Positions 3,774 through 39,849 of a stretch of DNA of 64,000 nt are shown in pieces. The DNA is from Methanocaldococcus lauensis (GTDB taxonomy: Archaea; AGJL01; Methanococci; Methanococcales; Methanocaldococcaceae): assembly GCA_902827205.1 (NCBI GenBank), contig LR792634.1:992001-1056000 (forward strand), given 5' to 3'. Made by a program: the position numbers and the translations under genes. Each line of letters begins with the position of its first letter. Position 1 is the stretch's first letter. Under the pieces are notes generated by a model. It did no database searches and had not been told where the DNA came from. It was given only the letters and a program-made list of their open reading frames with translations.

Positions 3774-3905
3774 TTATATATTCCTTAACTGCTTTAAAGT
3801 TTCATTTACGTCTTCTTTAGATACTTCCTTTGGCTTTCAATCTCTACGCTTAATTTTCAGAATTTCTTCTGTTTCTCTCTATAATGTCTCTTTTTTTATT
3901 ATTTA
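3774..3905 (-). pseudogene. Short degraded coding remnant
   Basis: Upstream of the U32 gene, one minus-strand frame reads as a charged helical C-terminus with two internal stops: RETEEILKIKRRD, a stop, then KPKEVSKEDVNETLKQLRNI and a stop at 3776-3774. Composition and heptad-like spacing look protein-coding, unlike the surrounding AT-rich DNA. I cannot assign a family. It lies between the U32 promoter and the tnpB relic, which points to a decay zone. Confidence 0.3.
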
Positions 3906-3960
3906 TAGGAACGAAATATTTTCGGGATACCACAGTAGTTATATTATTAATTATTAATTA

Positions 3961-4113
3961 ACCGATGAGAGGGCTCTGCCTTCGAGGTCATCATAACTTT
4001 GATAAAAAGATTTTATGGGGCTGTATCCGTTCAGCCCGAAGTCCAATGAATCCACAGCAGAGGGAATAGTATTCCCAATGAATCTGTGGATTGAGGACAA
4101 CCCATTTCCATAG
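3961..4113 (+). pseudogene. Relic of the 3' end of an IS605-type tnpB gene
   Basis: The plus strand reads DERALPSR, then stops, then KDFMGLYPFSPKSNE and MNLWIEDNPFP followed by TAG at 4111-4113. These are the last residues of the TnpB encoded at 38661-39608 (DERALPSR ... FLGLFPFSPKSNE ... MNLWVEDNPFP). Relative to that copy about 50 bases coding for the second CxxC of the zinc ribbon and the RuvC-III segment are missing, and nothing upstream of DERALPSR remains. The nucleotide match is close over the whole stretch. It cannot make TnpB; what survives is the segment that in this family doubles as guide RNA scaffold. Confidence 0.75.
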
Positions 4114-4186
4114 CTATCGGTTTATATAAATTAAGTTGTTAAATGCTATGATATGCTATGGAAATGGGAAACGGAGCCACGTCCTC
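4093..4186. repeat. Inverted repeat at the end of the tnpB relic
   Basis: CCCATTTCCATAG at 4101-4113 is matched by its perfect complement CTATGGAAATGGG at 4156-4168. Outside these, GAGGAC (4093-4098) pairs with GTCCTC (4181-4186). The left arm covers the tnpB stop codon. IS200/IS605 elements carry subterminal hairpins at their ends, so this may be the right end, possibly altered by duplication. The other copy near 38.65 kb shows only a weaker version. Together with the relic, the 481-base gap 3707-4187 holds only decayed sequence. Confidence 0.6.
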
Positions 4187-4187
4187 T

Positions 4188-4526
4188 CTATGGTCTTAGA
4201 TAAATATAAACATCATATTTTTTTCCATCTTCTCCAATAGCAGTAGTTTTTTCCCTTATATAGTATATTCCCAAATCTTCATAATCGTCAAAAATTTTTA
4301 ATTCTTTTTCAGTAATTCCCAATAAAATAATTCCATCAATATAACTTCCATCTTCTTTTACAGCCCCGTAGTATCCAATTGACTCATCAAAAAACTTTTT
4401 AAATCCATAAACTCTACCTTTAATCATTTTTGGAACTCTTTTTATTAATTTTAAGAGAACATCTTTTTTCATCAACTCTCCATAGGCAAATACATTATAA
4501 TAATTTTTATTCTCCAAAGAATCCAT
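4188..4526 (-). CDS. Gamma-glutamylcyclotransferase-like (AIG2/GGCT family) protein
   Basis: A 112-residue protein with the family's N-terminal YG-L motif (NVFAYGELMKKDVL), a central strand GRVYGFKKFF, and the conserved acidic segment IFDDYEDLGIYYIRE, where the family's catalytic glutamate lies. Members cyclise gamma-glutamyl amines to 5-oxoproline or act on related amide substrates; the archaeal substrate is unknown. I take ATG 4526 because the GTG nine bases upstream is part of the ribosome binding site. The stop lies one base beyond an inverted repeat of the tnpB relic, so the last codons may come from the element. It follows tgtA with almost no gap. Confidence 0.7.
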   Translation of the reverse strand: MDSLENKNYYNVFAYGELMKKDVLLKLIKRVPKMIKGRVYGFKKFFDESIGYYGAVKEDGSYIDGIILLGITEKELKIFDDYEDLGIYYIREKTTAIGEDGKKYDVYIYLRP

Positions 4527-38060: not shown

Positions 38061-38606
38061 TTATTCCTCAGAGTTAATATTAATTATTATATTCTTGAAA
38101 TCTTCTCTCTTTATAATCTCAACACAGTCATATAAACTTTTAGCAACAAAATCAGCCTCAGTTTCATCATTATCATAAAGAATCCTTATTGTTTTACATC
38201 CAACACTTTTTCCGCAAATTATATCGCTCTCAGAATCTCCAATCATCCAACTTTTTTTAAAGTCTATATTCCATTTTTCCTTTGCCTTTAAAAGCATACC
38301 ATTCCTTGGTTTTCTGCAGTTACAAGTTCCATCTAAATGAGGGCAGTAAAATATATCATCAATCTCAGGCAACAATTTAAGCATATAATCATGAATAACC
38401 TTTAAATCCTCTTCACTCATAATACCCTTAGCAATTCCCTGCTGATTAGTTACAACTATCAATAAATAATCCATTTTTTTAAATTCTATCAATGCCTCTC
38501 TAACTTTTGGTAGTAATTCAAATTCCTCTATTCTTTTAACATAGTCCCCTATTAATCTTTTATTTATTACCCCATCTCTGTCTAAAAATATTGCCTTATT
38601 AACCAT
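38061..38606 (-). CDS. gmhB: D,D-heptose 1,7-bisphosphate phosphatase
   Basis: A HAD-IIIA phosphatase of 181 residues that removes the 7-phosphate (or 1-phosphate in the GDP branch) of heptose bisphosphate. Motif I IFLDRDGVIN; VVTNQQGIAKG; the zinc loop CPHLDGTCNCRKPRNGM (Cys, His, Cys, Cys), diagnostic of GmhB; MIGDSESDI. ATG 38606 follows GGAGGAAAGT. It lies directly downstream of tnpB on the same strand, so the element sits in what was probably its promoter region, apart from the other heptose genes at 40.9-42.8 kb. Confidence 0.9.
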   Translation of the reverse strand: MVNKAIFLDRDGVINKRLIGDYVKRIEEFELLPKVREALIEFKKMDYLLIVVTNQQGIAKGIMSEEDLKVIHDYMLKLLPEIDDIFYCPHLDGTCNCRKPRNGMLLKAKEKWNIDFKKSWMIGDSESDIICGKSVGCKTIRILYDNDETEADFVAKSLYDCVEIIKREDFKNIIININSEE

Positions 38607-38660
38607 ACTTTCCTCCGTTTTCCATTTTTATAGTATATAAATAGTATTTAGCAACATAGA

Positions 38661-39608
38661 TTATGGAAATGGGTTATCCTCAACCCACAGATTCATCGAG
38701 ATTACCAATCTCTCTGCTGTGAGTTCATTGGACTTCGGGCTGAACGGAAACAGCCCCAGAAATCTTTTTATCAGATTAAAGACAGCAATAACATCTCTAT
38801 CGGCATAAAATCCACAATCGAAGCAATACATTAGCCTCGAAGGCAGAGCCCTCTCATCAGCCAATCTATATAATTGAGATAATCTATTTCCACAGTTTGG
38901 GCATAATATAGAAGTGTAGGAAGGATTTACCTCAACAACTTTAACTCCGAATTCTAAGCACTTATTTTTAAGATAGTTTAAAAATTTTTTAGCCGAAATG
39001 TTATGTAGTTTATGTTTTATCTTTTTAAATGACTTTTTAGCGATATTTTGATTAAAATAAGAGGATAAATCCTCGATAATTAAAACTGCTTTATTTTCTT
39101 TAAATTCCTTAGCAATTTTGTTAGTTATATGTGGCTTTAGAGGAATAACTATTCTACCATTCGGTGTAGATGTTCTTAAATGCATTATTTTCTTCCCTTC
39201 TTTATCTATTGAATATAGTTTTTCTATATTGGTTTTAAAATCTTTGTAGTTGAATAAAATATCATCTAACCATAAAGATGCCCTTTTAATTTTAGGAATT
39301 TTTGTATATGCTCGTCCTCTCTTTTTTATGGATATAAAGCTTTTTATTCTCGTAGATGCGTCTTGTGAAGCTGTATATATGTAGTGGGTAGGTAATTTCG
39401 GATATTTATTTTTTATTTCTCCATATATTCCTTTCCTAATCTTTATATGTCCTTTTGTATTATTTCTTAATCCAAAATTTAGAGCAATCGTTAAAATTTC
39501 TTTATAAACCTCTATAGTATTTTCTATGATTTTTATTTTTGTTCTCGTTATTGGCTTACTCTTCAATACTACTGTTTTAGATAATTTAATAATTTCTACC
39601 ATCTTCAT
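38661..39608 (-). CDS. tnpB: TnpB-like protein lacking RuvC-I (IS200/IS605 OrfB, probably nuclease-dead)
   Basis: An open frame of 315 residues. The N-terminal half has the TnpB helical and wedge-like region (YIYTASQDASTRIKSFISIK; SLWLDDILFN). RuvC-II is present with the Glu at about 179 (AVLIIEDLSSYFNQN); the zinc ribbon has Cys at 236, 239, 262 and 265 (CPNCG, CFDCG); the RuvC-III region reads YADRDVIAVFNL, where the usual DVNA Asn is Ile. The RuvC-I block with its catalytic Asp, expected between the wedge end (RIVIPL, residue 157) and HITNKIAKEF, is absent, an in-frame loss of perhaps 70-100 residues. TnpB is normally an RNA-guided DNA nuclease of about 370-430 residues. No tnpA is in the window. 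Starts possible at 39608 or 39602. Confidence 0.85.
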   Translation of the reverse strand: MKMVEIIKLSKTVVLKSKPITRTKIKIIENTIEVYKEILTIALNFGLRNNTKGHIKIRKGIYGEIKNKYPKLPTHYIYTASQDASTRIKSFISIKKRGRAYTKIPKIKRASLWLDDILFNYKDFKTNIEKLYSIDKEGKKIMHLRTSTPNGRIVIPLKPHITNKIAKEFKENKAVLIIEDLSSYFNQNIAKKSFKKIKHKLHNISAKKFLNYLKNKCLEFGVKVVEVNPSYTSILCPNCGNRLSQLYRLADERALPSRLMYCFDCGFYADRDVIAVFNLIKRFLGLFPFSPKSNELTAERLVISMNLWVEDNPFP

Positions 39609-39673
39609 TCTCTAAATAGTTTTTTCGTTTGTTTTATTAGTTTTATTAGTTTTTTGTTATATTTACAGCTTTC

Positions 39674-39849
39674 GGAGGAGCTATTATAAGTATCTATATG
39701 CAATAATATAATACAGAAACTAAGAAACTGTTTCAAACCCTATTTTTACTTAAATCCAAAAATCAATTTTATTAATTCAATAGCATTAGGATTTGTAACG
39801 ATAATGACAAATAAAATTATTATTTGTGTATCTCTTTAATCGCTCCTCC
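39674..39849. repeat. 176-base inverted-repeat element (MITE-like)
   Basis: GGAGGAGC at 39674-39681 is matched by GCTCCTCC at 39842-39849. The match continues inward imperfectly (left ...TATTATAAG-TATC, right complement ...GATTAAAGAGATAC), giving terminal inverted repeats of about 20 bases around a non-coding core. It lies upstream of tnpB and accounts for most of the 337-base gap 39609-39945; the rest is T-rich DNA with short tandem TTTTATTAG units next to the tnpB start. It may be a miniature element or contain the left end of the tnpB element. Confidence 0.45.

Follow-up and report, generated by a model that had tools for sequence, protein, structure and literature searches.

IS607 elements such as ISXfa1 and ISFba1 combine a serine transposase (TnpA), TnpB and a guide RNA (reRNA). 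They insert at GG without target duplication (PMC6188088; PMC10711439), and a characterised IS607 TnpB uses AGGAG or GAGGG as its motif (PMC11061315). The mini-element described here lies in a window of 64,000 nucleotides, the whole stretch of DNA that was analysed (positions 992001-1056000 of the single-contig, 1,479,331-bp genome G000 of a heat-loving methanogen). It shares with these elements the GG ends and the insertion at GG without duplication, the TnpA-TnpB order (here seen in relatives), the right-end reRNA, the pseudoknot formed by the bases next to the right flank and an AGG-like motif. Unlike ISXfa1 and ISFba1, the window element codes for no protein, and in its family the scaffold lies partly within tnpB coding sequence. 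It also differs from described IS607 reRNAs in that no Rfam family detects the scaffold, RAGATH-18 included if that family is in Rfam: the window held no match at the gathering score, and in four loci the only matches had chance-level E-values.

Among protein-free elements, the Haloquadratum PATE HqIRS71 is non-coding and retains, in disrupted frames, some of the sequence that codes for the TnpB C-terminus (PMC3119063). Like the Haloquadratum PATEs, the mini-elements studied here are archaeal, non-coding and transposase-free (PMC3119063), and in the journals covered HqIRS71 is the closest precedent found for the window mini-element. PATEs derive from IS605-type elements; here, the parent is an IS607 element whose transposase is of the serine type, and covariation supports the scaffold. 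A literature search with partial journal coverage returned no paper on IS607 mini-elements with reRNA scaffolds.

Two further systems are relevant to the supply of guides. For IscB, Altae-Tran and colleagues reportedly described in 2021 trans-acting loci that consist of omegaRNA only, with many guide RNA loci per protein gene; the present family resembles them in this ratio and differs in belonging to another protein family and another transposon. TldRs are nuclease-dead TnpB repressors for which a supply of guide RNAs in trans has been suggested (PMC13418256), and they offer the nearest parallel to a dead TnpB that has guides. The likeness would lie in a TnpB with an inactivated RuvC together with a guide RNA. 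In contrast to TldRs, the inactivation consists of a 128-aa deletion, and no gene partner or other guide target was found.

The mini-element and its repeat family

The window mini-element measures 267 bp from its left GG to its right CGG (3908..4174, plus strand), with ends set by comparison across the family. Positions 3961-4174 are similar to the 3' end of the tnpB gene at 38.6-38.9 kb at both the nucleotide (E = 7e-37) and the protein level (E = 5e-12), and the protein itself is destroyed, as the frame is broken and the stretch carrying the second CxxC and RuvC-III is missing. To this extent the original prediction, which described a tnpB relic, was borne out. It had, however, drawn the relic at 3961-4193, as a remnant of the 3' end with everything upstream gone. 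The bases after 4174 are flank, a degenerate left end is present 5' of 3961, and the locus is a member of a repeat family with the same deleted form.

At the left junction (ATAGG, 3905..3909, plus strand), the A preceding GG is a putative TnpB target-adjacent motif. The degenerate left end (LE, 3908..3963, plus strand) shows weak similarity to GGGTTCGAAACAGTTTC... in other copies and is followed by a 24-base block, GATGAGAGGGCTCTGCCTTCGAGG (3964..3987, plus strand), which derives from the tnpB codons ADERALPSR. With a mean pairwise identity of 0.92 among 28 mini-elements, compared with 0.69 in the adjacent linker, this block is the most conserved stretch of the mini-elements; inspection by eye found no covarying or pairing partner for it. 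The reRNA scaffold (4013..4174, plus strand) closes the element, and the flanking DNA immediately beyond, AGCCACGTCCTCTCTATGGT (4175..4194, plus strand), is the putative guide. The same insertion, between matching flanks, is present in the same-species genome G031.

With the relic as query, blast returned 23 matching pieces from G000, and the best of the other copies was 87% identical (E = 1.7e-74), so that the similarity is real and the relic is a member of a repeat family. A covariance model search located about 18 scaffold places in G000 and about 15 in G031, and more were found in seven relatives. In several genomes, complete mini-elements of 222-340 bp are dispersed and protein-free. Many copies begin with a left end like GGGTTCGAAACAGTTTCTTAGTTTC, followed by a short AT-rich stretch and the 24-base block; in the 3' part of many, a linker leads into a structured region, and the right-end hairpin then closes in AACGG. 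The linker stands where the second CxxC and RuvC-III part of tnpB would be. Thus, the copies are short, non-coding, numerous and dispersed, and they carry the ends of an autonomous parent, as MITEs and PATEs do. Classical terminal inverted repeats are absent, as they are in PATEs and IS607. The element had no match in the phage or plasmid collection that would indicate spread by such vehicles.

The guide RNA scaffold

The window scaffold matched covariance model R1 with 193 bits (E 1.7e-46), this copy being in the training set. It comprises hairpin S1 (GGGCTG/CAGCCC, 4018..4037, plus strand), whose apical loop holds CCGTT at 4027-4031; stem S3 (4050-4057 with 4084-4091), which encloses stem S2 (4062-4067 with 4071-4076), the two spanning 4050..4091 on the plus strand; and the right-end hairpin S4, CCCATTTCCATAGC/GCTATGGAAATGGG (4101..4168, plus strand). 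The terminal AACGG (4170..4174, plus strand) is the 3' pseudoknot partner of 4027-4031 and contains the GG fixed by insertion. Because RNAalifold found almost nothing on our own alignment, the helices were defined on the window copy, and their pairs were then tallied across the copies.

Across 31 copies, 91.4% of the cells of the four helices were paired, with two-sided changes at 13 pairs, and sliding the partners by 1-3 columns lowered pairing to 29-46%. With the pseudoknot included, 91.7% of cells were paired, and 48 cells carried two-sided changes compared with 20.9 +/- 4.5 in shuffles that retain relatedness. Compensatory two-sided changes occurred at three pairs of S3 and four of S2, and also at four pairs of S4, in which 91% of cells were paired. 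In the pseudoknot, which joins the CCGUU loop of the first hairpin to AACGG, the five bases before the guide, 93.5% of cells were paired, and two copies carried the double change CTGTT/AACAG. Mini-elements alone gave 86-96% pairing per helix. In the window copy, all 39 pairs (34 of 34 in the helices and 5 of 5 in the pseudoknot) are intact, by construction, as this copy defined them. Its predicted fold has a free energy of -66.4 kcal/mol (z -7.4), and it is the best covariance model match in G000, though itself a training member. In line with the original prediction, the locus carries a complete guide RNA scaffold, and the substitutions that would have spoken against it, those destroying paired elements, were not seen in this copy.

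A conserved scaffold that ends at the right end of the element and has a guide-proximal pseudoknot is characteristic of a reRNA or omegaRNA, and the copies show it. In ISDra2 and IS607 reRNAs, the right-flank bases join the scaffold through the same pseudoknot pairing (PMC10711439), and the layout of the copies is the one described for IS607 and ISDra2.

Four mini-elements were also found by the model in another genus of the order (genome G023: L185, 170800-172200; L186, 1353500-1354700; L187, 859500-860700; L188, 1640600-1641800), with E values of about 4e-4 to 8e-4. Their stem sequences are unlike those of the window family, and the layout is the same, with a CCGTT hairpin loop, a stem GGTTATCCGCTAC/GTAGCGGATAACC and an AACGG end. 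A compensatory difference, CCACCC/GGGTGG versus CCAGCC/GGCTGG, was seen among them. They are an independent, reRNA-like family. When the TnpA-TnpB elements of G023 were considered as their possible parents, three of the four TnpA loci showed no such end motifs in their surroundings.

Transposase, TnpB and insertion sites

The family belongs, by its sequence features, to IS607 and not to IS605, because it has GG at both ends and inserts at GG, a Y1 TnpA is lacking and a serine TnpA occurs in relatives. A profile search for Y1 TnpA (PF01797) found none in G000, and control genomes were positive. In G015 (L075), the family LE is followed by a TnpA gene that matches NF033518 (transpos_IS607) at 154 bits against a cut-off of 110, the contig ending inside the gene. 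In G009 and G015, C-terminal remnants of TnpA lie 36-39 bases upstream of a full-length tnpB, and G000 has a fusion of a resolvase pseudogene with a tnpB relic. Neither G000 nor G031 yielded an intact IS607 TnpA, and G000 has only the TnpA pseudogene. GG stands at both element ends across the family. The joined flanks of the element at 493.5 kb in G000 match six relatives across the junction, where most have a AAGGGGATT-like empty site with no duplication; for the window copy's own insertion, no spanning empty site was found. Since it has no transposase of its own, the window element is an IS607 derivative and not an autonomous member.

The gene whose TnpB was originally proposed to work in trans with the window guide RNA lies in an IS607 element without tnpA (38615..39740, minus strand), which is identical over 1126 bp to a copy at about G000:493547-494672 with different flanks; these are the two tnpB-bearing elements of the family in G000. 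Its scaffold (38615..38761, minus strand) scored 153 bits (E 4e-36), and its tnpB (38661..39608, minus strand) encodes 315 aa, without residues 161-288 of the full-length protein. Compared to full-length relatives of 423-433 aa, 128 residues are gone, including the RuvC-I aspartate of ALDFNLDN; the motifs with the Glu of RuvC-II and the Asp of RuvC-III are kept, all three catalytic positions being assigned by motif and alignment. With the 128 residues missing, the predicted 315-aa protein should not cut, and a role for it as the nuclease partner is not supported. There is no intact cognate TnpB in G000. At the site of G000:493547-494672, G031 (1153747-1154830) carries a tnpB with the same deletion that has also lost the zinc-finger/RuvC-III part. 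This gene is 85% identical to the G000 copy, compared with about 99% identity in the flanks, and the likely source of the divergence is that one copy converted or replaced another. The only other long TnpB in G000 is an open one at 734987-736009 (L035, L201); it is of another IS607 type, 27% identical to the cognate TnpB, and again without an intact TnpA in G000.

Of 29 independent insertion sites, 27 have an A before the left G run, against a background of 42% (P about 1e-8). This bias, together with the known AGGAG or GAGGG motif, suggests that AGG is part of the TnpB target-adjacent motif and that the A is likely to belong to it; the preference could instead be that of TnpA. The first 18 bases past the window element had no other match in G000 at up to three mismatches. 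A second genomic target, which the original prediction had looked to the flank to provide, thus received no support, and the lone match fits a guide for the element's own vacated site. Several insertions (window 38595-38620; L030 and L031) fall within a ribosome-binding site that immediately precedes a start codon; at 38595-38620, the right end of the element supplies the GG again and so keeps a GGAGG-like site.

Interpretation of the scaffold-bearing copies

We consider it likely that the window locus is a non-autonomous, MITE-like IS607 derivative that retains both ends and the reRNA scaffold, encodes no protein and was orphaned as its partners decayed. In an active phase, a serine TnpA would have moved the mini-elements in trans, and each copy would have transcribed a reRNA with flanking DNA as guide. 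Full-length TnpB would then have cut the vacated site, composed of (A)GG and the flank, and so restored the element; at an occupied site, CGG rather than AGG would precede the guide, by which the element would be spared and self told from target. TnpB probably served the mini-elements in trans. In G000 today, with no intact TnpA and a cognate TnpB without RuvC-I, the window copy is probably a structurally sound orphan that no longer directs cleavage, and its degenerate left end suggests that it may long since have lost its mobility. The one-contig assembly could lack a plasmid with TnpA or TnpB, and the two identical 1126-bp elements point to recent copying or gene conversion despite the lack of an intact TnpA.

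A plain decayed transposon fragment, its scaffold intact through recency and free of RNA-level constraint once tnpB was lost, is an unlikely account that nevertheless carries some weight. The window left end is degenerate, copies L022 and L025 are without the S3 arm, L032 and L034 are truncated, and conservation can be mimicked by gene conversion between copies. Recency does not suit the window copy, which is among the best structured and, being common to both same-species genomes, is not recent. Moreover, arms, core and block are conserved at 0.83-0.92 in the same mini-elements whose linker stands at 0.69, and two-sided stem changes occur in copies without an open frame. Far less can be said for an IS605/IS1341-type relic, as the original prediction had it. 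TnpB homology is common to both families and a right-end hairpin is present; the absence of a Y1 TnpA from G000, the GG ends and target, and the association of this tnpB with a serine TnpA in relatives make such an origin extremely improbable, and it was rejected on the missing Y1 and the linked serine enzyme.

By analogy with TldRs, the scaffolds might guide the nuclease-dead 315-aa TnpB in binding without cutting, the mini-elements supplying many guides. RuvC-I is gone by the same deletion in both same-species genomes, some insertions fall at ribosome-binding sites, and TldRs with possible trans gRNAs are documented (PMC13418256). The private branches of tnpB carry few amino-acid-changing substitutions, with 9 nonsynonymous and 13 synonymous changes on one and 8 and 13 on the other (P about 9e-5 and 4e-5 against neutrality), although, the copies being mosaic, the low ratio is no proof that selection acted once the deletion had occurred. 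A loss of 128 aa is large and no point change, the G031 copy is also without its zinc-finger/RuvC-III part, no further target of the window guide and no conserved gene partner were found in the genome; we regard such present-day guidance as very unlikely. A wider proposal, quite unlikely in our judgement, is that guide-RNA-only IS607 mini-elements give one TnpB many guides in trans, the protein having once been a copy-protecting nuclease and now perhaps a binding-only repressor. If true, this would be a natural multi-guide system, MITE-encoded and in archaea.

Under the orphaned-derivative reading, the copies also bear on how such elements persist. Non-autonomous elements are usually held to need just a transposase in trans. 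That scaffold and AGG-like signature are kept in the copies suggests that the retention function of TnpB can be shared in trans too, in which case one nuclease could serve many guides; relatives with a full-length TnpB of this family exist, among them G005 (433 aa) and G001 (423 aa).

Some copies show further events at the repeats. At L025 (G000:406576-406977), one mini-element lies inside another of the same family. The flanks of L021 (G000:85100-85714) are far apart in G031 (826601 and 663008), each adjoining an element copy, and their separation is a rearrangement breakpoint at repeats. In the left flank of L022 (L191, G000:1234604-1234765), a stretch GAAGATGTGGAGAGTTTCCGTTCCCC resembles the G023 scaffold, and another reRNA-like element appears to have been the insertion site of this copy; in the same flank, the sequence upstream of GAAGATGTGGAGAGTTTCCGTTCCCC recurs at G000:930120 and 318293.
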